Positions 8,401 to 55,351 of a stretch of 64,000 bases of DNA are shown in pieces. Where the stretch lies: the NCBI GenBank assembly GCA_963402885.1, contig OY727095.1, positions 10,669,001 to 10,733,000 on the forward strand, given 5' to 3'. Position numbers and translations under genes: made by a program. The notes beneath the pieces are model-generated. The model ran no database searches. It saw only the letters and a program-made list of their open reading frames with translations, and was not told where the DNA came from. Each line of letters opens with the position of its first letter. The stretch's first letter is position 1. This DNA is from Antedon bifida (taxonomy: Eukaryota > Echinodermata > Crinoidea > Comatulida > Antedonidae).

Positions 8401-10186
8401 CGTTGTCGCGCTGCGTCCATGTGGGAGTTGTGTCTCTTTGTTCCGTGTGTTCAAACGTCAGAGTGTTAATCTAAAAGGAAATTATTCGGCACAAAACATA
8501 ATTATATTACTTACGTTCCAGGATAATTATTTGAACAATCGGCTTCATTGCAGACTTCGGTAATTTCTGTAGGACGTGGTTGAGAATTACAATTTGTTTC
8601 ATGAACTTCAACGTTGCCGCTTCCCAAACACACGATTATTTTGGATCTTGTACCTGCAAATAAAGTAATTGTAAATGTATCATATTTCCCGAATTTGACA
8701 AATATTTTCAGTTATACTATTACTATGTAGAACAATTATGCATTGTGAACTGTACACAATAATAATATCTATATTTAAAAGAGGTAAACGTCTCGAAATG
8801 TAACCTCTATACATTTGCTATAGGGCTAGTAGTATGTGTGTATATGAATAGAAAGCTGCTCTTTCTATTTTCTCTTGTAATTGTCTTTGACCACACGGGC
8901 TATTAGTTGGATTAAACCGCCCCGGTCGTTGTAACTTGCCAATATCCGTCTACCGAATGACGTTATTCCTTCAATCCTTCAATAAAGCTCTGTCTATACT
9001 ATAAAACTTTATGTGACACAAAAATGTGATTTGCCTATATATGGAAATGATGATGATGTCATATCACTACTATATTTGGGTGTATCACTACCATATTTGG
9101 GCACATCACACTTTTTCGTCAAACTAGTTTGATAGTGTAGACAGAGCTGAAGGATGCAATTTAACCTACCTTGTCCACAAGTTACTGAGCATTCTGTGAA
9201 CTGGTTTTTGGTAAACCATTGTGGGCAGTCAGCGATGTTACAGTTTTCAGTGACTGTTGGACGTGATTGTCCATTGCAGAAAGAATCGTCAACTTCTGAA
9301 CCGTCATGGCGTGTACATACTACTACTCTTGTTCTTGTTCCTAGAAATAAAACATATTAAACATGTTGTTAGTGAGTAATTTAAAAGAGAGTGTCGTTAC
9401 TTCCAAACACCTTCTGGACACATTGGGAGGCAAAGATGACCACACTTGTACTCAAATGGTGTGGTTATCTGAAAATGATCTACCACACAAATGTATTTAA
9501 TTCATGTTACTGAAAAACATGTTTACTAGTTTATTAAAAGTGCATACCTTGTCCACATGTTGCTGAGCATTCTGTAAATTTGTTTTTGGTAACCCAAAAG
9601 TAAGTTGGCTGGACACAATCACCAAGGTTGCAACTTTCGGTGACTGGAATTGGAGGTGATTGGCCATTGCAATAGGAATCTTGAACCGGCTCGTAATCGT
9701 TTCGAACACATACTATTTGTTTTGTTCTTTGGCCTACACGATTAAAAATGTATTTATGATAAGGTATAGGAAAGAGAATCGTTCCGTTAAAGATATCCAA
9801 ACAGCTACAACAATTGTGTTTAATAATACCTGTCTGTATCTCTACATCTGGTATTGTCCAGTATCATGCGAATTATATAATACAGTGACACACTTGTGAT
9901 AATGTGATGTACATTGTATTACGGAATTAGCCCATGATACCTGGAAAATTACAGTCGTACCGCAGTATCTGAAAATTACTACTACTAATGAAAAGTTACA
10001 TACCCACTCCACAGGTTACTGAGCATTCTGTAAATTGGTTACTGGTAAACCATTGATACGTTGGTACACAGGCAGCGATGTAACAGTTTACTATGAGTTC
10101 ACTTGGTCGTGATTGCCCATTACAAAATGAATCGTCAACTTTCACACCATTGTTTTGAGTACAGGCTACAATTCTTGTTCTTTGAC
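5437..10186 (-). CDS. ADAMTS gene, exons 18-27: C-terminal TSP1 repeats and two CUB domains
   Basis: Exons: 10004-10186, 9548-9733, 9170-9340, 8515-8653, 7963-8176, 7456-7621, 6837-6986, 6457-6633, 5937-6118, 5437-5589. Exons 18, 19 and 20 (183, 186, 171 nt) are near-copies. Each enters in phase 1 after CG(Q/V)G of one TSP1 repeat and ends at the same point of the next. Exons 21-23 complete the last repeats (CSKTCGGGVQTRG, CSKSCGGGVRSRT). A Pro/Thr linker follows. CUB1 is split over exons 24-25, and CUB2 over 26-27 (SLSSPNYPSNYP, CGYDSV, YYCSDRNPF). The protein ends ATYTFV. Confidence 0.92.
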
Positions 10187-13100
10187 CTACACATAAAGAA
10201 AAGACATAACATGTCAAATCATGACACATATATGTCAGTATTAGAGCAATACGCTATTTTGAATTTTTTTTTTTTTTAGTTTAATTAATTATGAGATCCA
10301 CTGATATATCTACACAATGATTGCACAGTTGATCTGTAGATGGCACTTGAGTAAAGCGATCAGAGGGCACATGACTTAAAGATAGTCAGAAAGAACAAAT
10401 CGATATGGGTCAAGATTAAGAGGGACATTTGCGTGTTATTGCAAACAATTCACAACTGATGCCATAAACTAGTTCCATACCTTGTCCACATGTTGCAGAA
10501 CATTCTGTATACTCATTCGCGGTCCATTGATACGTTGGACCTTCTGGCTCTGGATCTATTGGGCTTACACCATTTGGTAGGTAATACTCCCAGTTCACCT
10601 GGGTATCAGAGTAACTAAACATGTACACATCGATCTCAACAATACTGGTTGTCGGTCCGGGAATAGTGATAGATTCTCCATTGCTTCTATCGTAATAGAA
10701 GGATTGGGAATCGTGTTTGTACTCCTTTTGTGCCGGAAGAGCGCCATCACCGCCAATGATGTATTGGTTGTTTATTTTAAGAGCTGAAATAAGAATATAT
10801 TACATATTTAACATAAAGTGATGAATACTTTTTACTGCTGTACTAAAAAAGTACTGGTAAACAAGAAAACAGTAGACATATATGTTATTACTTATAACAA
10901 AAATAACGTTGTTATTCTGATTTATTTCAAAACTTTGAATACTTGTTACTACTGTATCTAAACAAAATACCGGTAAACAAGAATACAGTAGACCTATTAT
11001 GGTATTACTTACAACAAAAAAAAAACGTTGTGATTATTTCCAAAAATGTGAATACTTTTTATTTATTGCGTAAAGTTGTATGTAACGTGACAGCTTGAAT
11101 ATGGCGCCCCGGAATTAGGACAATAAATGTATAAAATGATACTAATCATTTCATAACTTACCAATATGACCGTTGTTTTTGAGATTGGTGATCTTTACAG
11201 ACGTGGCCCCGACCGCAATAGTTAATATCTTGAAGTATGCTGCAGAAGAAGAACAAAAATAATTTTAATAATTTGTTAGTTTAAAAGATCCGTAATATTG
11301 CTTTGGAAATAAGGAGGAATTCAACATTTTGTTTAAATTTCAACAGTAAAGATACGAGAAAACTCTTACTTGAAATAGGCGGAGATGTCCTTGTGAATGT
11401 GCCTGAATGTCCGCTACAGATTACTCCTGTTCCTCGACAGACACCGCACTTATCGTATATAGCATTTGAATATGGTTCGCCATCACAGCCAAATTCCTAA
11501 TGAGTAAAAACAAACTCTAATAAAATATTCAAAACAAAATCATCCATATTATATTCTTTAATTTTGTACCAAGTAAATTTACACAAAACGATTGTAAGCC
11601 TACTTACAACACATTTGCCCATGACACAATATTTGTTACTATTAGGCTGATCGACATCACACCTGGTACCGTCAATAAAATAGTCACCACGACTTAGTAC
11701 TACGTTGGGACCCGAGGTGGAAGAACATAGAAAGTTGCATAAATCGTCACCTGTCAAAATAAATAGTGTATTGTTATCGATTTACTAATTTAATGCTCTC
11801 ATTGAATGTGACGATAATGATGATGATGAAAACGATGACGACGGCGACGATGACGAGGGCGACGATGACGTTGATGATTTTTTATGATGATACGATGATG
11901 ATGCTACGATATGTGCCTCTTCCCGTCAGCAGCCACAGCGGCACAGCAGAATGTGTATCGTCATAAAAACATGATACCGTGGCTTCGACCTACTAGTATC
12001 TCAGACTTTGCATGACATAATAATAATAATAAAATAAACCGTACCTGTTGTGCCAATTGTGAATCCTGTCCACTCTAGAAATTGGTTATTGTATAACACA
12101 TTGTTTGTCGAAGCGCACTGTTCATTTCTGAAGTCCTCTTGAGTGGCGGTTTCGCATGGTTCTGAATTGCATATTCTTGACATGTAACTATCGCCTTGGC
12201 ATTCTTCACCTCCATAGGCAGCTCTATGTTAGAAATATCGTTATGAATAATTAAAATGGTGATAGAAATAAAAATCAATAGGTCTACACAATAAAAATAT
12301 AGAAAAATGAGCGATTTAGCCCAATTCTTGTAATTATAAACATATATATTTGTTTCTTGTTTTTTTTTATGTTAACATTATCAATTATGTATAATAAAGA
12401 ATGGAAAACAAAATTATATTAACATTTAAAATGTGACTTACGCTGGATTATTACAGAATCTATATTTGTATTGAACACCGCCTCCACACGGACGACTGCA
12501 ATCTCCGTAAGTGGGTTGAAATGGACTCCAACCTCCGTCGACTGGAGTTGGTGCAACATCCGCACCATACTCACAGCTTCCTTGCTTACAAATCTGAGAA
12601 TAAACACATTCATTTTAATTATAGGGATGAATAACTTCGACAAAGAAAAAATGCTTAAAATAATTTCAAATGTTATTTGAAATTGTGGTATCTATTGTAA
12701 GACTTGCTTTTATTAAATAGGCCTACAGCGACAGCGCTAGAATGATATACCAGGGCGCCAATAAGCGCAGTTACATCGGCAAAAAACCGACATACGTTAA
12801 CATTCAACAAAGATGCATCTTATTTTGATTCGATGTGGCTATAATGGCTATAATACTTACTTGTTCGTAGCCGCAAGATGTTCCGTCCATTTTGGCAGAT
12901 CCACTACTAAAACAGTTAAATGAACCTGGTAAAGTACACCACAGATATGCACATTCATCCTAAAATTGAGAAGATAGAACATAATAATAAATATTTTTCC
13001 TCTTCCATTCAGTGACAAGTGTGAATGTTGCTTAAAAAACGCCATACACATTTACAGATACACAATTGTAGACATACTTACATTTTGTGGATAGGGGTTG

Positions 13101-16100
13101 CTTTCACATTCCTTATATGCGGAACCAAATACCAGTTCACACTGCCTGTCCGCAGGGTATCGTAGTCCTGGTAGATCATTGGTGATTGGTTGAGCTACAT
13201 TCAAATTGCTACTCGGTACATCTCTTGTGCAAGCACCATTTGAGGAACTTTAAAAATAAAAACCATGACATTCAGGATAATATATTTTGCAGCTGCATTA
13301 AAAATGTACAAACGTTTTTACATATCAATATTGTATACTTGTTACAAAGTATGTTTAAGGAAGATCAATGTAGACAGGCAGTGTAAATAGGTTTTTCTTT
13401 ACTGCAGAAAGTCAGAGAACCTGTTTAACAAATATGGAACTCCTTATCTCTTCTCCTCTGTAATGAGGCAAATTACTGCATCACGGAATTGTAATGATTG
13501 TTGAACCATGTATAAATGTTAATGTTTTGATAATTAATAAATTAATAATAACAAATACACATCACATAACCTCTGGATGACCAACAAAGAAAAGCACATA
13601 AAATATTGGTATATTAAGGAATTATTGAAAAAAACCTACCCGAAAAAATTATTTAGCTGATCTTTGCTGCAAGTTGACCAGATATATGAACCAGGTCCAG
13701 CGGTTCTAGAAGATCCCATGATGTTAACATTATCTTGACATTGGTTTCCATCATCATGATTTACCCCAAGACTGTAGAGAAAAATAAATTTAAACCCAGT
13801 TATATAAGAAATATCTGTAGACCTATTCTTTTAGAAGACAACGCCGTGTAGGCCTGGGAATCAAGACGAATTTTGCAAGAACCATCCAACTACTTACTTA
13901 TGTCCTATTTCGTGGGTGATCGTCAGTCCGGAGGCCATTCCAGATTCTTCATTCAGAGAACATTGATTGTATTCTGTACAGGCCCCCCATAATCTTGCTA
14001 TTCCAAGAAGGTTGTTGTTACCATACAGATCCAGGTTAAATCTATAAATAGCGCAAAACGTATAATCATAAAAAAGAAAAAGTAACAGTTTCAATTAGGC
14101 CTACATTCTGTAAAAATTATTACATTTCATTTATCAAAAAAAAGATGAAGGCGATCTTAGTGAAGACGACACCATGAAGATATAAGATAAAGATACTGGT
14201 AAAAACAATGTATAGAGCATTTACCTGCTGATAAGCAGAGCGTTATCCCAATGAGTTGGGTCACTATCCGACGCTGGGTTAATTAGCCTTTGGAAATCGC
14301 AGAATTTCGGCAAGGTATATTCTGCTTGTTGTGTAACGTCTAGAAACGCCGTTCCGCCATTTGGGGTTTCCACCTGAATCTAAAATATAATTTTGTTGTT
14401 GTAATGTTAGTGTTTAGAAATTATCTTGTTGGTTAGCCATTATTACATTATTGTCCCAGATTGTTAAATTCTTTATAATATATTATATGCCAATGTAATA
14501 ATTTATAATAAATAAAGACACATTTATTATTGAACATTCTGGGAAAACAAATCGTACTTACTGTAGGTGCATCAAATAAAATAAAACGTGTAATGTAAAT
14601 ATTGACTCTTGTTCCAACTGACGGATCTGCATATCGACCGGCAACCTGCAAAAACATAATTATTTATTTATTATATGAATATTGAGTACTTACTCATTAC
14701 ACGGTAATGATATTTATTTATGTCTGCAACAGCCAAACTGTCAGACAAACTGAACATCGGCTGTTCTATCGGCTCTATACGTTTTGGCTTGGACATAACT
14801 TTCAAGGTTTTTCAGAATTTAATAGCGATTTAGCTGTTTCATGTGGTTTTAATTTTAAACAAGCCAGCTACATGTACTCACGATATTCATAAGTGTCAAT
14901 GTGTAGTCTTCTAATTCGGCACCATGATATAACCTCATTTGCCAATCTGTAACTACGAGCAGTTCTAAATGACGGCCGGAGGCTGATGTCTGTCTTTTTG
15001 TTCGCGTTGCTTTCTTTTCGCCGTCACTGCCATCAAACTCTCTCGCTGATTCTGCCATCTCATTCTGATTATTCTCGTCGTGGTAGTATTCTAATATTGA
15101 TGAAACATTGTTATTATAATAATATGCAACACTAGTAAATTTAGGTCAGCGGTACACCATTTGTTTACAAAAGAAAATAAAGTATGGTTGAGAATGTATT
15201 GACATCTTAACTTGCCTATATTCTCAATCTTCAACTTTTTTTGTGGAAGAAAGCAGATGACAATTTCCAGTATTTAAAGGTTTAAATATACTTAATTTTA
15301 ATGTTTTTTCATTCAATTCTCCTTAAAAAATATTCTTACTTTTATCGTTGCCACAAACATGCTTTTTCATTTCTCTAGTTTCTTCTGTTTCGCCGTTTGG
15401 TATATCTCCTGCTGATCTTCTGTAGATTACATGAGGGTTTTCAATGTCTCTCCTCTGTCGAAGTTTTTCTGCATGATCTTCTTGTAAAGGTTGTATATAC
15501 ACATCGGAATCTCCATGGCTGAACATTCCAGACTGATTAAAACAAAACGAAGTGTTTAATTATTTTGCTGTTTCGTACTTTATGACTTTTAGTCTACTAA
15601 TAACATGCAAGGGAAGTACATACAAAGGCCTACTGTTTTTATTTTAGCGTAGGCCTATGTTTGATTATTGCCAAAAGAAAATGAGCTTGAGGTTTGATTG
15701 GAGGTAGCCAATTATAAAGAAAATACATAGGTTCTTAATCAAGCTTTAATGTATATAACGAGCAATGGATCAACTATATTAATTATAAATGCTACCTACC
15801 AATCCTTTACATGTGCTAATTGCTGCTCTTGAACCATCGTGTGAATGCACCTCTCCGAGGTAGTGACAATGATTTACCAAGGGCTTTTTTACAACTGTGC
15901 CGTTTGCGTACGCATACTCGGCAAAGGTACCAGGTGGAATAAGGGCTTTATTCTTCCACAGTTTAATATGGTAATCCTCGCCAAAAGCTGTAAACTTGAC
16001 CTCGTGTTGGTCAGGGTATTCACTGCCATCTATTGATCGTCTGCGGCGTCCATGCGATGTTCCGATAATTTCATATTCTGGTACTAAAATAAAACGTTGT

Positions 16101-17054
16101 AATAATATTGATATTAATATATTTCAATTCAATTCAATTTATTCAAAATTATTCGAAAATAATTTAAATCGAAATGACAATTGAAATCAAATACAGTCCA
16201 AATGTACATAAAAATAATGAAATTCACAAAAATTACACTTTCATCGAACCATTTTCTAATGTATTAAATTTCTAGTAATGTGGGTAGCCCATGTAACCAT
16301 GCATGGGATCTATATTAATCTAAGATCATGCGGAAATAAAAATGACCAGTTGAAACGTCCTTAATGCAAAATAAATATAGTATTATTGCCAGGTTATGTC
16401 AAATACCCAATAACTTACCTTCGTCAAGTGAAGAAACACTAAAATATCTTTTCATACTATCTTCCGTCAACATATCATTTATCTTTGGTAAAAAAAGAAA
16501 AAAAAATACAAATTTATTTGGTTATTAATAGTTGATAAATATTTGGCCGTCATAAAAATTCAATAATTGTTATTCTCTATTAACCATTGATTTTTACTGT
16601 AACCTAATATAGATTTATAATGTCTACAAGGCATGTCTGATGACGTACAATAACTAAAGTTGACTCAAAAACAAATAGTTGTTTCGAAGTTCAATGCCAT
16701 GCTGACTGTATTGAAAATCCAATATCGATTTATTACAGAAACAGTGTAACGCTTATTTTAGAGGCAAAATTAAAATAAGTATTACATATTAATTAAAAGA
16801 TCCCGTAACAATTTGAATTTAAATAATCTATATGATTTGATTTTATTTTATTTGGAAAATGAGTTAAAAGTATTGCATTAACACAAATATATACTATTTA
16901 AACCTCATAAATATAAACAAGTTAAACAAAGAATAACGAAAAGAAAAAAAATGAGAACGTAAAGAGAGTTGCTGGTACTTACTGCTTTTGAGTTTGCTAA
17001 AGTAAAATACGCTACAAGTAGAGTGAAGACTGAACCTCTTATTAAACCAACCAT
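5437..17054 (-). CDS. ADAMTS metalloprotease with ADAMTS13-type architecture, complete 27-exon gene
   Basis: A secreted zinc metalloprotease. Twenty-seven exons join in frame with GT-AG junctions to 4305 nt, 1434 residues plus stop, very near human ADAMTS13 (1427). Domain order: signal peptide (1-~20), propeptide with a furin site RTKR ending at residue 237, catalytic domain with HEIGHNLGVNHDD at 397-409 and Met-turn M420, disintegrin-like (about 446-534), TSP1 repeat 1 (about 554-605), Cys-rich, spacer (about 734-845), six further TSP1 repeats (about 845-1200), CUB1 (about 1215-1323) and CUB2 (about 1324-1434). Two C-terminal CUB domains are the hallmark of ADAMTS13 among vertebrate ADAMTS proteins, whose substrate is von Willebrand factor; the substrate here is unknown. 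The GON and PLAC modules of other ADAMTS subgroups are absent. The start is the ATG at 17054, followed by a good signal peptide and preceded by a TATA box. The stop is TAG at 5437-5439. Orthology to ADAMTS13 is inferred from architecture only. Confidence 0.93.
5620..5890 (+). mobile_element. tRNA-derived SINE in the last ADAMTS intron
   Basis: An A-box-like CGGTTAAGGC is followed about 35 nt later by a B-box-like GGTTCAAGC, resembling a Ser/Leu tRNA head. A non-tRNA body follows, with gtgcacttaaaatatcccag, a core seen in marine invertebrate SINEs. It lies between exons 26 and 27. Confidence 0.6.
6305..6322. repeat. AT dinucleotide run
   Basis: Short (at)n in an ADAMTS intron. Confidence 0.7.
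7676..7816. mobile_element. MITE family A copy in the ADAMTS exon 22-23 intron
   Basis: Starts with ggttcccactagagacgcaa and ends with the inverted counterpart ccttgcgttgcgtccaagtg. The inside is itself palindromic around an attggtca-type block. Related copies occur at 33.5-35.2, 42.9, 55.35 and 61.3 kb. The long plus-strand frame across it is not a gene. Confidence 0.75.
8327..8440. mobile_element. Degenerate MITE family A relative in the exon 21-22 intron
   Basis: Inverted ends acacaacttccac and gtgggagttgtgt enclose cgcaagtaacttgatcagtcacgac-like internal sequence, a diverged relative of the copy at 7676. Confidence 0.5.
8986..9148. mobile_element. MITE family B copy in an ADAMTS intron
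   Basis: Terminal inverted repeats agctctgtctatactat and atagtgtagacagagct bound a core with two copies of the phrase tatcacta-catatttggg. Relatives occur at 20.4 and 27.4 kb. Confidence 0.75.
9858..9955. mobile_element. MITE family C copy in the ADAMTS exon 18-19 intron
   Basis: Begins gtccagtatcatg and ends catgatacctgg, with tacagtgacacacttgtgat inside. The same termini recur at 34.8, 40.3 and 56.8 kb. Confidence 0.6.
10481..13247 (-). CDS. ADAMTS gene, exons 10-17: disintegrin-like, TSP1-1, Cys-rich and spacer
   Basis: Exons: 13082-13247, 12861-12959, 12442-12593, 12045-12223, 11608-11750, 11370-11496, 11162-11239, 10481-10783. Exons 10-11 encode the disintegrin-like module (LPGLRYPADRQCELVFG, then CAYLWC). 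Exon 12 carries the central TSP1 repeat (GGWSPF, CSRPCGGGVQ). Exons 13-15 form the Cys-rich region, ending with the conserved DKCGVCRGTG. Exons 16-17 encode the spacer, which ends in NWEYYLPNG; exon 17 also contains the start of TSP1 repeat 2 (YTECSATCGQG). Together these modules form the substrate-binding exosites in this family. Confidence 0.9.
11805..11905. repeat. Trinucleotide-rich low-complexity tract (gat/gac)
   Basis: Imperfect gatgat/gacgacg run in an ADAMTS intron. Confidence 0.8.
13640..17054 (-). CDS. ADAMTS gene, exons 1-9: signal peptide, propeptide and catalytic domain
   Basis: Exons read from the minus strand: 16983-17054, 16419-16482, 15800-16083, 15340-15532, 14882-15090, 14562-14645, 14225-14379, 13898-14041, 13640-13771. 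Exons 1-5 hold the signal peptide and propeptide: HCHYLGEVHSHDGS is the typical Pep_M12B block, CGN at Cys200 is a candidate cysteine switch, and RTKR marks propeptide removal. The catalytic domain begins at once with SGRHLELLVVTDWQM. HWDNALLISR in exon 7 matches the conserved strand of ADAMTS catalytic domains. The zinc motif is split across exons 8 and 9 (HEIGH / NLGVNHDD). All three His, the Glu, the Asp after the third His, and the IMGS Met-turn are present, so the enzyme is predicted to be active. Confidence 0.93.
16118..16146 (-). mobile_element. Non-LTR retroposon tail
   Basis: Tandem ttcaa units (tttcaattcaattcaattta) form a short 3' tail, read as repeated gaatt on the minus strand. 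The same type of tail is at 2896, 40385 and 41665. The body is too diverged to name. Confidence 0.4.
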
Positions 17055-22444: not shown

Positions 22445-23345
22445 GGTATATTTTTTTTATTTCTTTATTCTGATATAAAATCAATAGGATAAAAACACAA
22501 AAAAGTACCGAGACGGCAAACTTATTTCCATTGTGGTCCTAAACAAATATAACAGAATAAACAAGGAAACCACAATAACTTTAACATAATACACAAACAT
22601 ATAGCAAATTAAATTTCTCTTAATCTAAGAATTTCACAAAAATAACCTTTTGATCTCTGTTTAAATAATTGTAATGAAGAGGAGCTTTGAACAAAATAGG
22701 GGAGTGAATTCCATAACTGAATACTTGTTATTAAGAAAGTTGACCTGTTGTGAGTTCCTATGACTGGAATTTGAATCGAAATGCTGTCTCTAGCAAATCT
22801 TGTATTATGATTGTGACGTTGTCTCGTCAGGGTAATTGTATCCAGGTAAGTTGGAGCACTTTTATTAATTATTTTATACATAATACATAGTTTCCTCTCT
22901 TGTACTCTTAGGTCAACTGGCAACCAATTTAAGTTTACAAACTCATGTATACCTATATGAGATCGTGGTCCTAGGTTCGAAATGCACCTAATAATTTTGT
23001 TTTGAGACGTCTGTAGCCTATTTTTAATATATTTATTTGCACATGAGTACCATACACAGCACCCATAGTCATAATGACATTGTGTCAGAGAAGATGCAAT
23101 TAATTTAAGAGCATATTTAGTAGTATATTTTTTATTTCTATTAAGAAATTTAAGTATACAATGCATTTTATTGATTACTTTCATACCTGTAGCTGTACCA
23201 GTCAGATTCTGGTCAAGATCAATTCCAAGGTATGTGATTGAAGATTTAGCAGTTATGTTTTTATTATTACAGGTAATTTTCATTTCTGACTGCTTTCTAC
23301 ACATGGTTTTTGTACCAAATAAAATTGACTCCGTCTTACCTAAAT
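22445..23345 (-). pseudogene. 5'-truncated LINE: reverse-transcriptase C-terminal part and 3' UTR
   Basis: The frame from about 23345 to 22609 starts HLGKTESILFGTK, the segment just after the reverse-transcriptase palm. It continues with ITYLGIDLDQNL, LNWLPVDLR and IQLWNSLPYFV, all typical of CR1/L2-like LINEs. The 3' UTR contains ggaccacaatggaaataag and ends in aataaagaaataaaaaaaat near 22445. Upstream of 23345 the similarity stops, so this is a truncated insertion. The remaining frame has no stop, which suggests it is fairly recent. Confidence 0.85.
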
Positions 23346-26154
23346 GACGTGTATGTGTGTGTTTGCCATTGCCTCTGTCACTGATTTAGGTTCAAACTGT
23401 GTTTGACCTGATATCAGTAAAAAGAGATATATATTTTGACAAACAGACATATCATACGTATGATACTTGAGTTCAAAATCTTTCTAGACAAATTTTTCAA
23501 CTTTTCTATTCATTATTAAACGTTATTAATAAATTAACATATCAGAGTGTTTTTTATAATTCTCATTTATGAAAGTCATTTTGAGTGTTGATTTCAATTC
23601 GTTTACAAAGAAGTATACGTTTTATAAATACTATACTGCCTAATAATACGCTGTTGTAGCCAATTCGTTTAATGAATGGAAAAGTAGGATATACAACTGA
23701 CAAGTGCTTGTGGTTAAGTTTTGATGTTTAAACAACATTAATAACAATGTACGTATCTAGGCCTACGTGCCCGGATTTCGATCTTTAAAAACAACCCATA
23801 AATCCTAGTAATAAACGAATCAAAGGTTATCATAACCTTACTGTGGGTTTTACTTTCCAAAGGAAAGTTTAATATACAGAAATATGACTTAAGTAATAGA
23901 TTAAGTAAAAGGTTATGATATACCGCAGATATATATTAGGTTTTAACGAATTTATAAGAAATCCGTTGTTCATTGTGTTTACTAAAACAACCTTGTGATT
24001 TTAGAAGTACATTATTTTTTAAGGTGGTTTAAGGATTAGGCTGAAATATAAAACAAACAACAGCAGTGTTCTAAAAATAAGAGTTAAGCCGTACTTGGAC
24101 TTGTGGGTTTTAGTGCCTGGATGACCAATGACTCTGGCATTCTCAATCTGTAAAAGTTCATACAAATTAACAAAAGCAACACATCTATATGTAGGCCTAT
24201 TAAAAATAGAAAACATCTTAATATACAGAAAATATTACTACAGTACAAGCAGTTAGATAATTTCTGTTTTGAATATAAAATTAAATGTAAGGCAACCTCG
24301 TATTGAAATTGAAGTATAGCTTAGCCTACTTTATCTATCTTACATAACATTGAGCATGACAGGAGTATTGTCTTATAATTATTTTAAGAATATATCGGTT
24401 TTTGTAAAGTTTATTGTACTGTTTTTAATAAAGTGATGAGTCAATGCGGAAATAAAACCTGTAATGTAAATGTCTTAAAACAATAAACACAATATTATTC
24501 AAAAGATTTTCCGATGAAAGAAATTAATAAAGAATTATTTATAAGGAGATTCTTAGCCCCAGGATTAACTTTTAAATTAAATTATGTATAATTTATATAT
24601 AGATAGAATTGATGAACTATGCCATTCAGATGGAAGATAATGAAGAAATCTGGAATTTTGATTTTTATGACAACAGACGTATTTTCTCCAAAACTGTTGA
24701 TGACGTTCGCAGATTTTATGTGTAGTTCAAACCCGATAGAGTTAAAAACAAAATTTCTGTTCTTTTTAATAAATTATGTGGTGAGGTAAATCGATAGCAT
24801 GAATCAGCTTAGATTATTCCTATTTATGCTTTTTATTTCGTAATGTTTCCAAAGAAATAAACGGAAATTCATCAAATACACGAATACTATGTAGTTCATA
24901 GTAATTAATTAATGATAGTAGAAAATACAATAATCAAACTATAGCATTAATTAAACCTGTCAACGGTAATCAGCAATTCTTTCCTATAGTTATTAGTCGT
25001 TTTGCCTTTTGCGACCTATTGTCCCATCTAACCTGATTTTAAACTTATCGTCCTTACTTTTTTTTTATAACCGACCATATAAACCCAATATTTTGGTGAC
25101 GTCACAAAAGCTTTAGTAAAAAGTTAGTAGCAAAAGTTATCTTTTGTCGAATTATTGCTCTTTGCATTTCTTTAAGTTTATGCAGGAAAAATTTGTTTGC
25201 GAGCTTAATTTATTTGTACATTGTTTGATCATTTTCTTACATGATTGCATTAAATGGCTTATATGTCTTTATGGTATTGATAATAAATATGTACCTAGTG
25301 ATAACATAATCAACGAATGTAAAAATTCAAATTTACAACAATATTTAAGAATGATGAAGATTTATTACATCATTTAAAAAGCAACATCAATTAAATCTTT
25401 ATGTAACATTACTATTTATTTACATTTCAAATCTACGAAACAACACTGTACTTCTAGAATACGACAACCGTAATCGTAGGGATTGCAGTTTGTTTAGGTC
25501 TATGCCTGATCCATGCTAAGTCTCTTGTTTGATCCTGTCACATTGCAAGGTCTTTGCTAACCACCATACCCAAAACGACAAAACACAATAAATGTTCGAT
25601 TGGTACGTAAAACACAAGCGAAATATAAATTTACAAATTAATAATATTGTTCATAAAATGTATGCCACTTTATTAAGGCGAATTCAAGGTACTTTATAGG
25701 ATAGGTTATTTCATATATTTACCAGACTATTATCAACTGTATACAATGATAAGGTTTACTACTGTTAATTGTAGTTCAATCTGTTCGATATATTCTAAAA
25801 GCTTTTATACTTAGTTGTAAATATAATAATACTTTTGATATAATGGATTGAATGTTTTGTATGACATTTAAAATGTAATTGATAACAATCTCACATCAAT
25901 TCTACTGCAATAGAACCATAACGCCATATAAGTTATTACAGTTCAGCCTCTTTTGTATATTATTATGTAATATCTTTGTATAATTATTATTATTATGAAT
26001 ATTTGTTAAATTGGATTCAAATAAAACTGTATTAGAAAAGTGATGATGATCAACTACGGCAAAAATATCAATTATCTTAAACTATCATAAACCACTGACT
26101 AGGTACAAGTCCAACCCTTCATCTAGTTAACCAAACAAAATGGCCGAATTAAAC
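23346..26154. other. Spacer without a recognised gene
   Basis: The open frame 25144-25377 (plus) is Phe/Leu/Ile-rich with no motif I know. A tail-like aaataaaactg near 26020 could end a plus-strand retroposon. No gene is supported. Confidence 0.35.
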
Positions 26155-26487
26155 TTAAATGTCCAGGTTGAATGTTCTTGGTGGTCGTGATCTCACACTA
26201 CCATACGGGGGAATGTTTCTTCGGTGAGCCCGTGATCCGGATCTCTTCTGGCTAAGTTGTTTGGCGATTTCTCCGTCCGTTTCGGCGGCTTCAGCGGCGA
26301 GTTCCGATTCAAATATCAAGTCGAGTGCCCGCTCCGTAAGCTCTGTCCGTAAAGCGTTATACCAGGAACTATCTTTAAGCTCATGTAAATCAAATTCTCG
26401 TTCGTCCAGCATTGCATGAACGCATATTACAGGGAGTAAGGCGCCTAATGATACCATCAGTAAGATTACATTCCTATTAGTCGTCAT
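26155..26487 (-). CDS. Small secreted peptide precursor, family unknown
   Basis: A 110-residue protein. The ATG at 26487 directly follows an acceptor (TTTTTGTTCAG), so the 5' UTR must lie in another exon. Residues 6-25 are a signal peptide (VILLMVSLGALLPVICVHA). An acidic, helix-prone spacer of about 55 residues (ELTERALDLIFESELAAEAA) follows, then a Lys-Arg at 81-82 and an Arg-Arg at 89-90, leaving a basic C-terminal peptide NIPPYGSVRSRPPRTFNLDI (91-110). This layout is that of a neuropeptide or peptide-hormone precursor. There is no C-terminal Gly for amidation and no Cys in the product. I cannot match the peptide to a known family. A further RSR at 99-101 might also be cut. Confidence 0.6.
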   Translation of the reverse strand: MTTNRNVILLMVSLGALLPVICVHAMLDEREFDLHELKDSSWYNALRTELTERALDLIFESELAAEAAETDGEIAKQLSQKRSGSRAHRRNIPPYGSVRSRPPRTFNLDI

Positions 26488-44013: not shown

Positions 44014-47000
44014 ATAGTCCAGGAGTATTAGACTTTGAGGTAGAAATAAATATGCTAAAGCTGAATTTTTCAGGATAGGTCCCTAATGTTGTCTAAAACA
44101 ACATACTAAAAGTCCCCGGGTTTCCCCGTTGTGCTTCAACTCGATTGGGCCATTTTTCAAAATGGCGGCCATCTTAAAATTATTTACCATATGTTGACAA
44201 CCAGTAGGTGTAAGTAAACAATCTTGGTGTCAAAATACTCAGAAGACCCATATTTATATTCACTGTAATGGAAAAGTTTAACAAAAAATGGTCGGAAATG
44301 CCTGTTTTGACCTTTGACCCTAAATTTGGATTATCTCAATATCTCATCAACGACTGGCCGTAGAGACTTCAAAGATGTCCCAAATTATTCAGAATGCCCA
44401 ACTTTCTATTCACTTTAATGAAAGAAAAATACCAAATTCCTTTAGAAACCTTCTATTTTGACCTTTGAACTATTGACCTAGACATATTTTAATGTTATAG
44501 ACATCTTGGTGATCAATAGGAGCACACAAGCGAAATTGGTGTCAAAATACTCAGAAGACCCACATTTATATTCACTGTAATGAAAAAGTTTAACAAAAAA
44601 TGGTCGGAAATGCCTGTTTTGACCTTTGACCATAAATTTGGATTATCTCAATATCTCATCAACGACTGGACATAGAGACTTCAAAGTTGTCCCAAATTAT
44701 TCAGAATGCCCAACTTTCTATTCACTTTAATGAAAGAAAAATACCAAATTCCTTTAGAAACCTTCTATTTTGACCTTTGAACCCTTGATCTGGTCATATT
44801 TTATACCAAAATTGTATAGAAATCTTGGTGATCGATAGGAAAACATAAGGGAATTTGGTGTCAAAATACTCCAAAACACCAATGTTTCTGTTTACTCTTA
44901 TAGAAATAATGTACTAAATGCGATTGAAAGTGTTTTGACCATTGACCTTAATCATTACATTTTAATGAGAATTAGTCTAATTCGTGCCTAGCTTACCTGT
45001 ATAAACCGACAATAGCCCGTGCTCTCCAGAGGGAGGGCTTAGATGCGAAAAGTTAAATTTAAGTTGACATAAAGATAAACAGAATCTAACAATTCATCAG
45101 TATGGCCATTGCCATGAGAGGTAAAATTCATTCCAAATTGCTCAGATGCTAAACAGACAAACCAAGCCCCAATTTTAAACTATATATATATATGATACAT
45201 TTTACTGTCTGTTTGGGCTTTAGCCTGTTTTCACTTCTTTTTTTCATTAGTAACCAAACAAATTTTATTATTTATTTATTCTTTAAATATTAAGGTTAGA
45301 AATTAGTCCTCCAAAAAAATGCCACGCCTTCTCTATATGGCTAATGTCCATGTTTAAACTTTGCAGCTACACCAATTCTGAAATGTTTCCTCTTCGGCAG
45401 TGCCATTTAATATATAGCAGAGACCACTACTGGTTGATTTGACACACACTTATTGGTAAAATTGTTTTTTTTTTCAATTGAGCTGCACTATTACATTCTT
45501 TGTGTAATAGGTCTGGAGTACATAATTCATCTTATAACATTTTTTAAATTGTCTAAAACTGCACACTGTACATAGTCACCCACCCAACCATTTATCAAGG
45601 TCTCAGTCTAAGTCTCATTTTAGGCTCTAGTCATACCTCCGATTCTTATCTGATATGATGCAATTTAAAAGAATTATTGCATTTGTCTTTAAGATGTGAA
45701 CATTTTTCTCTGTTTTTTTTCTAATCAAAATTCTCCAAAAATCGAAAATACTTCAGGACTATATGATGGTTAATAAAATAAGGGCATGAAAATCTGTTGA
45801 AGACCATAACAACTTTACAGTGACAATTTCTTTATAATCCATCTTGATAGATTTGTAAGAGTTTCATATTGTATTTTATTATTTAGGTGATTTGTCAAAT
45901 GACACATTGTGACCCTTTGATACCTGAAATTATGGCCTCATATCTATATTGATGAATATTATTATTCGTCCATCGGACATTTTTTCTGGGCTGTTTCGAA
46001 TAAATTTGACATCTCATGGCATGATGAATGGTATGATATGTTCATCATGCTATTTGGGACTTAAATTATTAAATTATAATGTAGTGATTAAAGTCAAAGG
46101 TAAAAAAACATGGGTGTTTTGGAATATTTTCGCTTATGTATTCCTATCGATCACCAAGATTTCTATATAATTATGATATAAAATACTGTATTGGCCAGAT
46201 CAATAGTTCAAATGGCAAAATAGGTGGGTTCTAAAGGCTTTAGTATTTTTCTTTAACTACATTGAATAGAGAGTTGGGCACACTGCTTAATTTAGTACAA
46301 TTTTGAAGTCTCTACGGCCAGAAGATGATGCGGTATTGATATATCCCAAATTTAGGGTCAAAAGTTATAAATTTTGAAACCAATTTCGTATCCTATCGAT
46401 CACCAAGATGTCTATAAAAATAAATATGCCTAGGTCAATAGTTCAAAGGTTAAAATAGAAGGTTTCTAAAGGTTTTTGGTATTTTTCTTTCATTAAAGTA
46501 AATAGAAAGTTGGGCATTCTGAATAATTTGGGACAACTTTAAAGTCTCTACGGCCAGTCGTTGATGAGATATTGAGATAATCCAAATTTAGGGTCAAAGT
46601 TCAAAACATGCAGTTCCGGTCATTTTTTTAAAAACTTTTCCATTATAGTGAATATAAATATGGGTCTTCTGAGTATTTTGACACCAATTTCGCTTATGTA
46701 CTCCTATCGATCACCAAGATGTCTATAAAATTAAAATATGCTTAGGTCAATAGTTCAAAGGTCAAAATAGAAGGTTTCTAAATTAATTTAGTATTTTTTT
46801 TTCATTAGAGTGAATAGAAAGTTGGGCATTCTGAATAATTTGGGACAATTTTGAACTCTCTACGGCCAGTCGTTGATGAGATATTGAGATAATCTAAATT
46901 TATGGTAAAAGGTCAAAACAGGCATTTCCGGTCATTTTTTTAAAAACTTCTCTATTACAGTGAATATAAATATTGGTCTTCTGAGTATTTTGACACCAAA

Positions 47001-47400: not shown

Positions 47401-47998
47401 CTAACCTTTTCCAATATTGAATCTAAACATTAGTTGCTGTGTGATATTTTGTACCAATGTGTTTGTGTTTAAAAATAAGATTGTAAATGAGTTAAAAATA
47501 CGTAATAGTGAATCTAAATTATCGAAATCACTCCAACTAATTGAAAAAATATAATAATATAACTCAATTATGACCCTCCAGAAAATGGTCTCATAGCAAT
47601 TAATTATATCACCTGTCTGATTTTATTTGTTTCAATTATGTCTTTGCATCCAATATACCGTTGTTGTTTTCATCTTATGCTACCTATTTCTTCCTGTCGT
47701 AATAGGATTTCGTAAGAATCTTTATCGATCACTTATCCAGTCCTGTACTTGAACTATCTGCTGCTATCATTTACTATCTGTGTACTGTTGAAATCTTGTA
47801 TTATTTGGCAAAACAATTCTACGAACAATTTGACGTAGGTTGTAGATTCCTACGCTTAATTTGAACTTAATTATTTTATTTATTTCGGCACGAATACAAA
47901 TACTATGATAACAAAAAGCTTGATTGTGCTAAGGAGTGGCAAAAGAGGCCAACGGCTTCTGTCGATGATTATGAGTCTAAAATATTTTTTTTTATTTG

Positions 47999-48878
47999 GC
48001 TGCCTCCATAGTTTTAACATGGAGGCTTCCTCCATAGTTTTAACGTGGATGCTTCTTCCATAGTTTTAACATGAAGGATTCCTCCATAGTTTTTTACATG
48101 AAGGCTTTCTCCATAGTTTTAACATGAAGGCTTCCTCCATAGTTTTAACATGAATGCTTCCACCATAGTTTTAACATGGAGGCTTCCTCTATAGTTTTAA
48201 CATGAAGGCTTCCTCCATAGCTATAACATGAAGGCTTCCTCCATAGTTTTTTACATGAAGGCTTCCTCCATAGTTTTAACATGAAGGCTTCCACCATAGT
48301 TTCAACATGGAGGCTTCCTCTATAGCTTTAACATGGATGCTTCCTCCATAGTTTTAACATGAAGGCTTCCTCCATAGTCTTAACATGGAGACTTCCTCCA
48401 TAGTTTTTACATGAAGGCTTCGACCATAGTTTTAACACGGAGGCTTCCTCCATAGTTTTTTACATGAAGGCTTCCACCATAGTTTTAACATGAAGGCTTC
48501 GTCCATAGTTTTATCATGAATGCTTCCTCCATAGTTTTAACATAAATGCTTCCTCCATAGTTTTAACATGGAGGCTTCCTCCATAGTTTTAACATGGAGG
48601 CTTCCTCCATAGTTTTAACATGAAGGCTTCCACCATAGTTTTAACATAAATGCTTCCTCCATAGTTTTGACATGGAGACTTCCTCCATAGTTTTTACATG
48701 GATACTTCCTCCATAGTTTTAACATGAAGGATTCCTCCATAGTTTTAACATGGAGGCTTCCTCCATAGTTTTAACATAAATGCTTCCTCCATAGTTTTTA
48801 CATGGATACTTCCTCCATAGTTTTAACATAATTGCTTCCTCCATAGTTTTATCATGAATGCTTCCTTCATAGTTTTAG
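47999..48878. repeat. Minisatellite, 26-bp unit, about 33 copies
   Basis: The consensus unit is close to catagttttaacatgaagg plus cttcctc. Units differ at the gaagg/ggagg and atgctt/aggctt sites, and some have tttttac in place of tttaac. In the ggagg variants the core cctccatag...catggagg is nearly an inverted repeat. The array is continuous, with slight degeneration at both ends. Confidence 0.95.
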
Positions 48879-50240: not shown

Positions 50241-51590
50241 ATATTTACTTTTTTGCTGACTTGATATGACCTACTATAATAATCGTACTTATTAAGGATC
50301 TCATGTTTGTCTTATGTTGTACTGAACACAGTTCAGGTTGGTAGAATCTAAAACCCTGTTCACACGTTAAGTTATCTGAGCTACGACTGAGGTAACGTGG
50401 ATGTTACACCATCTACCATTTCTAAATGTAAAAAAAAAGATCTTTTTCATTTCTGGTATTTATTTTGAAGTAAGACCTTTTTTGCTAACTTGATATGACC
50501 TACTATAATAATCGTACTTATTAAGGATCTCATGTTTGTTTTATGTTGTACTGAACACATGTCGGTTGGTAGAATCTAAAACCCTGTTCACACGTTAAGT
50601 TATCTGAGCTATGACTGAGGTAGTGTGGATGTTACACCATCTACCATTTCTGAATATAAAAAAAGCAGATCTTTTTCTTTTCTGGTATTTATTCTGAAGT
50701 AAGACCTATTGTCTTAATCTTCACACGTTAAGTTATCTGAGCTATGACTGAGATAATGTGGATGTTACACCATCTACCATTTCTGAATTTAAAAAAAACA
50801 GATCTTTTTCATTTCTGGTATTTATTTTGAAGTAAGACCTATTGTCTTAATCTTCACACGTTAATTTATCTGAGCTATGACTGAGGTAATGTGGATGTTA
50901 TACCATCTACCATTTCTGAATGTAAGCAAACAGATCTTTTTTTATTTCTGGTATTTATTTTAAAGTTAGACCTTTTTTGCTAACTTGATATGACCTACTA
51001 TAATAATCGTACTTATTAAGGATCTCATGTTTGTCTTATGTTGTACTGAACACAGTTCAGGTTGGTAGAATCTAAAACCCTGTTCACACGTTAAGTTATC
51101 TGAGCTACGACTGAGGTAACGTGGATGTTACACCATCTACCATTTCTAAATGTTAAAAAAAAGATCTTTTTCATTTCTGGTATTTATTTTGAAGTAAGAC
51201 CTTTTTTGCTAACTTGATATGACCTACTATAATAATCGTACTTATTAAGGATCTCATGTTTGTTTTATGTTGTACTGAACACATGTCGGTTGGTAGAATC
51301 TAAAACCCTGTTCACACGTTAAGTTATCTGAGCTATGACTGAGGTAGTGTGGATGTTACACCATCTACCATTTCTGAATATAAAAAAAGCAGATCTTTTT
51401 CTTTTCTGGTATTTATTCTGAAGTAAGACCTATTGTCTTAATCTTCACACGTTAAGTTATCTGAGCTATGACTGAGATAATGTGGATGTTATACCATCTA
51501 CCATTTCTGAATGTAAGCAAACAGATCTTTTTTTATTTCTGGTATTTATTTTAAAGTTAGACCTATTGTCTTAATCTTCTTTATCACATT
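50241..51590. repeat. Higher-order tandem array of a ~130/230-bp unit
   Basis: The phrase ttcacacgttaagttatctg recurs at 50359, 50587, 50720, 50863 (ttaattt variant), 51082, 51311 and 51443. Long units (about 229 bp) carry an extra block, cttgatatgacctactataa to accctg; short units (about 132-143 bp) lack it. The order is long, long, short, short, long, long, short, so a composite block of about 725 bp has itself been duplicated. Confidence 0.9.
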
Positions 51591-53315
51591 TTTATTTTGT
51601 TTTATCTATCAGTATTTATCCGTGGCAGTAGGTCTTTGATATTAATAACATCTCAATAACTTTGCTACTTTGCGAGACAACACAGTAGATAAATCTTAAT
51701 TAAGTTGTGGCAACCTAACAGTTAACCTGTTAAACAGCTTTGAACAATAACACATAGAATGATCTAAGGCATCCTTATGTGTGCACATGTATCACTTTTG
51801 AGAATCATTAATAAAACTTCATGAATATTTCGTTGTTAGATTGCCGACATTTAATTGATGCATCGTTATTGAAAATTACACACACTTAATGACGTCTCTA
51901 TATTAATAAATGCAGATCTAACGTTTGGCTACATAATTGATAAACTGTACGACACATTACTTTTGATCTGATGTCATATTATTTTAAGAAGAACATTTCA
52001 TTAATTATGTTTATCAATAAATAATGCATAATGTGCCGTACATCTTCGTTTTTCAACACGTGACCTTGAAAATCATAACAAGTATGAAATATGATTGCTA
52101 ACAATCATGGACAAGTCTGGATCACATCTAACTTTATCGAACTATCGTAAAACCTCTCTTTTGATCCCGTTTCGGGGACACCTGTAGAGACAGCTTCACG
52201 TGAAACAACCCTAAAGATGTACCACTGTTATTCAGAAAGAGGCCTACTTCTAAAGATTAATCGAGGGTTGTTTAAGTATCCACCTTGAAATACTTACTTC
52301 GTCGGTTTCCATTAATACTCCTCAGTATAAAGAAATTGATAGTAAAGTGTTTAATATCTTCAAAGTAAAATTAACTTCGGTAAATTAAATACTTAAAGAC
52401 AACGTAAAAAGAAATAAATAATCTTTAATAATCACGAAAAAGATTCAATATTTGTATTTATTATCATTAATTTATCATTATTTTCAATGCAAGGCCTAGT
52501 TGTAAGTTGAACTTACAGTTCCTGTTATCTTTGGTCTAAATATTACGTCACAATTACGGTAACAATTACTAATCGGTTGGTAGGCCTGTTAGAAATGATT
52601 ATACACAACCATATCCTAACATTGCCAGGTGTTATCGTTAAATTATACCATACGTATCGCTTGTAAGAAATAGTCCTAAGCTGGTCAGAATTTTTTCATC
52701 ACTTTATAAAGTTTGATGAATCCAATGTTTATTGATTTACACTAAGTATCGACGGATTTCTTCTGCATTAAATTTAAACACAACATTTTAAATTCTGATT
52801 GTAAATGTACATCAAATTCATACTCACAATTATAAGCTACACACGTATAGAGCTTTTTTATTTCACTGATAAAAATAACTGTTACAAAATTTTTACAGTA
52901 GTATATCCATTAGTGGTTTTAAATTCCGTTCCCCTTTAAAATAGCCATGCTCATTTTGAATGATACATGGATTAGGATAACGCACTATTGAGACTTTCAA
53001 CGATTATTTATACTGAAATTTGTCTTGAAAGAAGTCTTGATAAAAGTATCTTGATGTAACACCAAGATAACCATATCTTTCATGCGTACTCTATCTAAAG
53101 CAGTTTGTTTTTTTTAAATAGCAAATCTACATTCAACTTCGGAAAATGTTAACAAAATAAATTAAATACTTGTAAAATGTATTTATGTATGTATATTTAC
53201 ATCGAATTGAGCTCTTTTGACGGAATGATTAGGTATTCAATTAAAATGATGTCGTTGAAATCAACCAAAAGCGTTCTGGTGTATTTTAGTTTGAAATAAA
53301 TTAATGATTATACTT
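51591..53315. other. Spacer, including the 3' flank of the peptide gene
   Basis: AT-rich. I could not find a consensus AATAAA on the minus strand just downstream of the stop at 53316. Confidence 0.35.
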
Positions 53316-53810
53316 TCAGGGGTAGTCGTTCGTAGGAATATCATTTGACGAAACTGATCTTTTCCAGCCACCACTACATGATCGACCTTTACATTTGTTG
53401 TTCTTTTGTTTCCATGATCCGTAGCCCCTTTTCCATCCAGCACTGCACGACATTCCGCCTCGACATCCCTTCCCTCCCCATGCTCGCTTGTCTTGTTCGA
53501 TATTAGTTGGCGATGACCTCTTCCAACCGGATAGACATTGACTTCCTCTACATCTACCCCCAGACATATCTCGCCCGCCCGCCTGCCTCCATCCTCTAAT
53601 CTGGCGTGCCTCTTCTAAGCCTTGGAGCAAAAGTTCCATAGAACTCAATCTATCAGTTAAAGGTACAAACTCTCTTCCATTCATTGCCTGCATTTCATTG
53701 TTTTCATCATCGAGTAGTTCATATGTACCTTCTGAACGTGAAACTGATATAACTAGCCCAAATAATATAAGTATTATTGCTATAACATTCATTGTATGCA
53801 CTTCTACCAT
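53316..53810 (-). CDS. Neuropeptide-like precursor with three Cys-loop peptides ending in Gly-Trp
   Basis: A 164-residue secreted precursor. The exon begins at 53832 after a TTTATTTCAG acceptor. The first ATG is at 53810 and a second in-frame ATG at 53792; either gives a signal peptide (MNVIAIILILFGLVISVS). An acidic spacer (about 27-70) comes before three related units, each followed by Lys-Arg: CRGSQCLSGW (87-96, KR 97-98), CRGGMSCSAGW (116-126, KR 127-128) and CKGRSCSGGW (140-149, KR 150-151). An additional KR at 108-109 frees the start of the second peptide. The consensus is C-[RK]-G-x(2,3)-C-x(2)-G-W, predicting small cyclic peptides with free C-terminal Trp. The products are strongly basic and Gly/Ser-rich. 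The layout is that of a multi-copy neuropeptide precursor, but the ring does not match somatostatin, MCH, CCAP or vasopressin types as I know them. An antimicrobial role is possible. Confidence 0.75.
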   Translation of the reverse strand: MVEVHTMNVIAIILILFGLVISVSRSEGTYELLDDENNEMQAMNGREFVPLTDRLSSMELLLQGLEEARQIRGWRQAGGRDMSGGRCRGSQCLSGWKRSSPTNIEQDKRAWGGKGCRGGMSCSAGWKRGYGSWKQKNNKCKGRSCSGGWKRSVSSNDIPTNDYP

Positions 53811-53832
53811 GCTAGGTTTAATTGAAAGTAAT

Positions 53833-55351
53833 CTGAAATAAAAAAGAAAATGGACAATTTAGAAAAATGTATATCTTGTTAAATCAGATAAAGTACTAGT
53901 ATAACAGTGGGTTGATGTTATAAGCTTATACATGTACTTCATACCCATCATCATTGGTCACTGAAGAAGTGCCGTTTTTTTCTAACTAGAGACCATCGGC
54001 GAAAGTGGAGTAAATAATTTGGCAGTTCTAACTAGCTAAAGCCAAATTTGCTCTTCTTACAGATTAGGTCTAAACAACCTTTCCTTCAGTAGGTTTGGTC
54101 TCCATATTATCCAATACTGCTTCTTACGCTACCAATTCTCTTTAGGAAAAAGAACCTTCCTGATTACGGGCTTGACAACAGTGTAGGCCTACCATTAGAT
54201 TAACATTCAACTAATAAGATTCAAAATTTTAAACCGAAATACAAAAAGAGATTTGGCAATAGTTGTACCTGGCAGGGTCAAGATGAACCAACTCGTGGGT
54301 ATGATATCATAATGCGTGAGTGAGAAGAAATAAAAACCAAAATGTAATCACTGCTGTAACAGATGAATGAATGTATTTACTCTATATCGACAAGCATACT
54401 ACGACAATTCTACTTATATGAATCGACATTTCTACTTATCCTAAATAGAATTTTGAGATACTTTCCTACTGGTTTTGACGTATGAAGTATTTTGTATAGT
54501 ACGTAAAATACTACCATTAAATTGATTATGCCTACTTGTAATTGAGAAAAAAAACATCATTACGAATATCGATTTAAAATACAAATTATACAACATGATT
54601 TTATTGCCTTCATTAAATTTGGTTTGTTTACAGAATATTCAGTTTATATGTAGTAAGTATCTATAAAAGTGAAGCTTAAATTGTGTGTTAGTTAACAGTC
54701 CACTAATTGATCATTCTGCATCAACGTTTGATGTTTCTGGCGGAAGAACACTTGTAATGACGCAGGGGTTATTAGGTAGAAAGACTCCGCAGTGATCTAT
54801 ATTTGACACATTTAAGCATTAAATTTCACAACGCGACTCAATCAATATATATTATTTAAAATCAGTATAAGTCAGAAGTCGTTCATAATAACGTCTGTTC
54901 GCGGCATGATGGCTTGTTACAGGCCTGATAAAGTGATGAGATTTTGAGCGGTGGACTTTAAGCGCGGTTATTCTTTGAAGACCTAGCGTCGATTCATGGT
55001 TTAACTACATGGAGATGATAAATCGTTGAATTCATCTAGGGCGCTTGCTAAATAACTGAACTGATTAAATTATCTATGAAACAACGCGTTTTACCTAAAC
55101 AAATGATACCTAGCAGTATTATTAAATTGTTGTCGAGTGCTTTCGATTGATTATATTACCGATACTAGTATCAGCATACAAATTATGATAATTTAAAACA
55201 AAAATGTAAATAATCAAATAAATACAAATACTCAATGTCTAAAATCTGCTTATTTAAAGGATTTGGAAATTTTAGTTTAGTTCCACCACCATGTGACTAA
55301 ACTGAAATTTCTTTATGGAGTTTAGGAGAGGAGTTTGTGTTGTCATAAAGG
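53833..55351. other. Intron or spacer upstream of the peptide precursor
   Basis: A 5' UTR exon of the precursor should lie in or beyond this stretch. I see no convincing promoter or donor on the minus strand. Confidence 0.35.

Follow-up and report, generated by a model that had tools for sequence, protein, structure and literature searches.

A three-copy precursor of candidate cyclic Gly-Trp peptides in Antedon bifida, probably of the echinoderm np22/np23 type

A short open reading frame in the crinoid Antedon bifida contains three units, each with a pair of cysteines and a C-terminal Gly-Trp followed by Lys-Arg. Does it encode a new class of peptide, or a type that has already been described from other echinoderms? 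The frame lies on the minus strand at positions 53316 to 53810 of the window, by which we mean the whole 64,000-nucleotide stretch of DNA that was analysed. Our analysis indicates that the precursor is real and probably functional, and that peptides of its kind are already on record as candidate neuropeptides. Judging from its architecture, the precursor probably belongs to the echinoderm np22/np23 type or is a close variant of it; we put the probability at roughly 0.6.

The open reading frame listing places the first Met at 53810 and the end of the stop codon at 53316, giving a coding sequence of 164 residues plus stop, or of 158 residues if the second Met (53792) is the start. The first ATG has an A at -3 and a G at +4, the positions that matter in the start-context rule. 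From stop to stop, the frame spans 180 codons. Frame 1 of the plus strand shows many stops over the same interval, and the overlapping rival frames of at least 50 codons comprise one of 117 codons on the minus strand (53261 to 53614) and two on the plus strand, of 99 codons (53542 to 53841) and 56 codons (53336 to 53506). GC content reaches 43.8% within the precursor frame versus 31.6% in the 2 kb on either flank and 32.6% in the window. The 180-codon frame is longer than the longest frame in each of 60 shuffled windows (maximum, 169 codons), and frames of 164 codons or longer arose in 9 of 5,000 local shuffles. Frame length is weaker evidence for a real gene than the recurrence of the motif within it, which is treated below.

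Just upstream of the first Met, a pyrimidine-rich tract with CAG (CATTTTCTTTTTTATTTCAG, 53833 to 53852, minus strand) resembles a splice acceptor. This tract suggests a 5' exon upstream of the precursor frame and lends mild support to the frame as an exon; it is weak when taken alone, since the same strand of the window holds 35 comparable sites (about 0.55 per kb), defined as [CT]AG with at least 12 pyrimidines among the 15 positions in front. AATAAA signals are found downstream of the frame at 52862 and further on. The coding region of the precursor appears to lie within one exon, and an extra upstream coding exon is possible.

The window holds 24 frames of at least 90 codons, of which 20 were scanned against Pfam (two from a Met only). 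Exons of an ADAMTS-type metalloprotease gene, with propeptide, cysteine-rich, spacer, and TSP1 pieces, were recognized by Pfam at about 7924 to 16123 on the minus strand. On the same strand, the piece at 1314 to 1607 matches an Ig-like/CD47 V-set domain (E value of 7.7e-06). A 258-residue frame at 22609 to 23385, minus strand, has no Pfam match; we take it to resemble the C-terminal portion of a LINE-encoded reverse transcriptase. Also on the minus strand, at 26155 to 26487, is a second small frame with the look of a secreted precursor: 110 residues with a hydrophobic start, an acidic middle, and a terminal KR-SGSRAH-RR-NIPPYGSVRSRPPRTFNLDI. A pyrimidine-rich CAG stands directly before its ATG, and it has no Pfam match at E values up to 1. 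Tandem repeats include a 26-bp unit present about 34 times (47998 to 48877), two two-copy arrays of 312 bp (44224 to 44871 and 46391 to 46999), and, downstream of the precursor gene, a 133/229-bp array (50248 to 51579). Rfam and tRNA scans of the whole window found nothing.

The precursor itself can be divided into a series of segments, all on the minus strand. It opens with a signal-peptide-like N terminus (MVEVHTMNVIAIILILFGLVISVSRS, 53733 to 53810), recognized by its hydropathy: a hydrophobic stretch covers approximately residues 7 to 23, with 11-residue Kyte-Doolittle means of up to 3.44, and the -3/-1 rule yields five candidate cleavage sites, including one after SRS. An acidic spacer follows (EGTYELLDDENNEMQAMNGREFVPLTDRLSSMELLLQGLEEAR, 53604 to 53732), and its first 42 residues, the segment EGTYE..LEEA, carry a net charge of -9. 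The region of peptide 1 (QIRGWRQAGGRDMSGGRCRGSQCLSGW, 53523 to 53603) ends in the ring and tail CRGSQCLSGW (53523 to 53552). Beyond it lies a 9-residue spacer peptide, SSPTNIEQD (53490 to 53516), between two KR sites. Peptide 2 (AWGGKGCRGGMSCSAGW, 53433 to 53483; 17 residues, with five between the cysteines) and peptide 3 (GYGSWKQKNNKCKGRSCSGGW, 53364 to 53426; 21 residues, with four between the cysteines) both have KR on either side, and a C-terminal tail of 13 residues (SVSSNDIPTNDYP, 53319 to 53357) completes the protein.

The three units read CRGSQCLSGW-KR, CRGGMSCSAGW-KR, and CKGRSCSGGW-KR, so that in each the second Cys is followed by two residues and then by GW-KR. All four dibasic sites are KR (91/92, 102/103, 121/122, and 144/145 in the 158-residue numbering); three of them follow GW, and the fourth follows SSPTNIEQD. 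Because Trp rather than Gly precedes each unit-closing KR, a free C-terminal Trp is expected. The N-terminal end of peptide 1 is uncertain: no dibasic site stands before unit 1, and the peptide would therefore need a monobasic cut or would stay joined to the spacer. An RGW found upstream of unit 1 (residues 72 to 74) has neither a Cys nor a dibasic site.

Much of what was originally predicted from this stretch is borne out by these features. The multi-copy precursor, its three units, and its KR sites are where they had been placed, to which the minus strand can now be added, and the rings of 4 to 5 residues are confirmed by the counted spacings of 4, 5, and 4. The hydrophobic start and the charged spacer agree with the signal peptide and acidic spacer that had been proposed, the signal peptide being a predicted one, and the absence of a Gly amide donor in all three units agrees with the proposed non-amidated Trp. 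The description of three Cys-loop units closed by Lys-Arg stands for the C-terminal ends, with GW-KR in 3 of 3; at the N-terminal end, KR delimits units 2 and 3 but not unit 1.

The recurrence of the unit was compared with chance using the motif C-x(3-6)-C-x(0-4)-GW-[KR][KR]. This strict motif occurs three times in the window, always in the precursor frame, versus a mean of 0.017 per window and at most one per frame in 60 dinucleotide-shuffled windows. When the dibasic part is dropped, three occurrences are observed versus a mean of 0.53 per shuffled window. The strict motif was absent from all 5,000 shuffled versions of the 495-bp interval, and among 200,000 shuffles of the protein, 62 had the motif one or more times, 1 had it two or more times, and none had all three copies. 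These figures all overstate the case, the motif having been drawn up with the sequence already in view; even so, three copies in frame are difficult to account for except by a real precursor.

Comparison of the units at the codon level points in the same direction. Seven columns (C, G, C, G, W, K, and R) are identical in all three units, and five of these seven use more than one codon; both Gly columns use three (GGA/GGC/GGT and GGT/GGA/GGC). Aligned over cores of 15 codons, the three pairs of units share 9, 7, and 8 identical residues, with the same codon in 4, 3, and 4 of the positions. As identical residues differ in their codons, the units do not stem from a recent tandem duplication. This pattern is suggestive of a peptide sequence kept while silent sites moved, in keeping with the selection that had been argued from conservation among the units; it draws on three units and is not a formal test.

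Is the signature new? The original prediction knew of no described family that carries it, and this part does not hold: the starfish precursors Arnp22 and Arnp23 were published in 2016 (PMC4772807). It had also named a match to a known peptide as something that would count against novelty, and such a match is found at the level of architecture, to Arnp22 and Arnp23 and also to Ajnp23 and np26, with layouts compared by description rather than by sequence. The assignment to the np22/np23 type likewise uses the published descriptions of Arnp22, Arnp23, and Ajnp23 (KT601739, KT601740, and MF422083), not their full sequences.

Arnp22 of the starfish Asterias rubens is described as a 157-residue precursor with a 24-residue signal peptide (Semmens et al. 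2016, PMC4772807). Its dibasic sites lie at 86/87, 112/113, 126/127, 136/137, and 151/152, and it contains a 24-residue and a 23-residue candidate peptide, each having two Cys with four residues between them and NQRGW at the C terminus (PMC4772807). Arnp23, from the same species, has 118 residues and contains a 22-residue and a 34-residue peptide, which keep this Cys spacing and end in RGW (PMC4772807). Their authors suggested a possible relationship between the two precursors and a possibly critical role of RGW in activity, and published both as candidate neuropeptides without a receptor or function (PMC4772807). As described, these starfish precursors share with the Antedon precursor a signal peptide, multiple copies of a two-Cys peptide, and a C-terminal GW before a dibasic site with no amide, and Arnp22 is also close in size (157 residues versus 158 or 164). 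They differ in having two copies ending in NQRGW or RGW, whereas the present precursor has three, ending in SGW, AGW, and GGW, with one five-residue ring.

GW stands directly before the dibasic site, with no amide donor, in 3 of 3 units, as in the np22/np23 type. The family spacing of four residues between two Cys (PMC4772807) is found in two of the three units (1 and 3), and unit 2 has five. Arg before the terminal GW, present in both starfish precursors but not established as defining the type, is found in none of the three units, which have S, A, and G instead. The precursor has a signal-like start, a spacer, three copies, and 158 or 164 residues, set beside about 118 to 157 residues and one or two copies in the members described so far; in length it comes near to them.

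Two further echinoderm precursors bear on the comparison. Ajnp23 of the sea cucumber Apostichopus japonicus contains one 20-residue peptide that has four residues between its two Cys and that its authors aligned with starfish peptides; the precursor has a signal peptide, dibasic sites, and two coding exons, its length being given as 128 residues in the text and 129 in the tables (PMC6586643). A neighboring peptide, which the authors interpreted as an acidic spacer, was detected by mass spectrometry (PMC6586643). In its description, Ajnp23 shares the signal peptide, the dibasic sites, and the Cys spacing with the Antedon precursor; it differs by its single copy and two coding exons, as opposed to three copies in apparently one exon. 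The brittle-star precursor np26 has seven GW-ending copies in O. victoriae (Ovnp26, MF155259) and eight in two other species, some of them ending in SGW; in one brittle-star clade, copy number is variable (PMC5627052). Ovnp26 thus resembles the present precursor in its several GW-ending copies, including SGW, and differs in having seven or eight rather than three; cysteines go unmentioned in the description of it. In a literature search by peptide name, the 2016 starfish paper alone among the matches listed dealt with these peptides, and no functional study of np22/np23-named peptides was among them.

Several other families were considered and set aside. Peptides of the EP/GGNG/CCHamide group share with the present units two Cys and a Gly-Gly or Gly-Ala after the second of them; as described, each of their precursors carries one such peptide immediately behind the signal peptide, and amidation is the rule, with a tardigrade exception (PMC6617912), whereas the Antedon precursor has three copies behind a spacer of at least 42 residues and W-K-R with no Gly donor in 3 of 3 units. 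The vasopressin/oxytocin type, as characterized in PMC6586643 and PMC4772807, would bring a C-terminal neurophysin domain and amidation; here there is no Pfam match, the tail has 13 residues, and amidation is not expected. The centrocin and strongylocin antimicrobial peptides are built from two chains with one disulfide or from six Cys in three disulfides (PMC4805251), as opposed to three two-Cys units separated by KR. Starfish bombesin-type peptides gave no lead in the material consulted, and the crinoid new-type candidate peptides with cysteines, among the matches listed, are amidated and so do not match. Searches for relatives of the precursor returned 88 pattern matches in prokaryotic contigs (bacteria and archaea) and 2 in viral contigs, none of them confirmed; these misses say little, since the collections consist of prokaryotes and viruses. 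The precursor has no match in Pfam at E values up to 1 and none among PDB sequences at E values up to 10.

Three other readings of the locus have to be weighed against membership in the np22/np23 type. The units could constitute a separate family of cyclic GW peptides, as yet without a name, that arrived at the np22/np23 layout by convergence. In favor of such a family, the core C-[RK]-G-x(2,3)-C-x(2)-G-W is not part of the starfish descriptions, which give only two Cys four residues apart and NQRGW or RGW (PMC4772807), and six exact unit strings turned up in none of 5.39 million papers, in a search that covered their text and not their figures. Convergence would, however, have to produce a coincidence of unusual traits, namely, precursor size, multiple copies, Cys spacing, and a non-amidated GW before a dibasic site, and we regard it as unlikely.

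An antimicrobial role is conceivable because the peptides are cationic and contain Trp: peptide 2 has a charge of +2, peptide 3 of +5, and the 28-residue stretch ending in unit 1 of +5, as opposed to -9 in the pro-segment. The locus would then encode a multi-peptide antimicrobial precursor whose acidic pro-region neutralizes cationic cyclic peptides that are released at KR and act on membranes. Sea urchins do have antimicrobial peptides that come with a pro-sequence, cationic chains, and (brominated) Trp, but those described are built differently, as a heterodimer of a 30- or 32-residue chain and a 13-residue chain or with six cysteines (PMC4805251). The C-terminal end common to the three units, the lack of a Pfam match, and the origin of the closest described precursors in a study built on a radial-nerve transcriptome (PMC4772807) also speak against this role, which we judge improbable. 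Least credible is a chance frame or a decayed gene. The failure to find a relative in contigs of bacteria, archaea, and viruses would fit it, but three in-frame units arose in no shuffle, their residues agree while their codons differ, and GC content exceeds that of the flanks, leaving very little room for this explanation.

Precursors of this kind generally follow a common course of translocation, disulfide formation, cleavage at Lys-Arg, trimming of Lys and Arg, secretion in granules, and action on receptors. As a member of the np22/np23 type, the Antedon precursor would enter the secretory pathway by way of its predicted signal peptide, and each ring would be closed by an intramolecular Cys-x4/5-Cys disulfide. 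Prohormone convertases would then cut at the Lys-Arg pairs, a carboxypeptidase would trim the basic residues, and the mature peptides would be secreted in granules with Gly-Trp as their free C terminus. We presume neural expression, and the peptides would most likely act on a receptor. The small ring together with the C-terminal GW is a natural candidate for the recognized part, as it is common to all three units.

A wider proposal is that the present gene, the starfish np22/np23 precursors, sea-cucumber np23, and brittle-star np26 belong to a single family spanning the echinoderms, whose secreted peptides are non-amidated, are mostly ringed by a disulfide, end in Gly-Trp, and have their own receptor, with a copy number of one, two, three, seven, or eight depending on lineage. 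We put this forward tentatively and consider it somewhat doubtful. Against it, the authors of the 2017 ophiuroid paper found np26 only in brittle stars among echinoderms, and they report no orthologues of Arnp21 to Arnp24 in O. victoriae, S. purpuratus, or A. japonicus (PMC5627052). The missing orthologues also weigh against placing the Antedon precursor in the np22/np23 type. The absence reported for A. japonicus sits uneasily with the later description of Ajnp23 in that species (PMC6586643).

The precursor opens no new peptide class. As a three-copy member with the core C-[RK]-G-x(2,3)-C-x(2)-G-W, it would instead provide a better query for relatives, and its units would offer natural variants for a receptor search.
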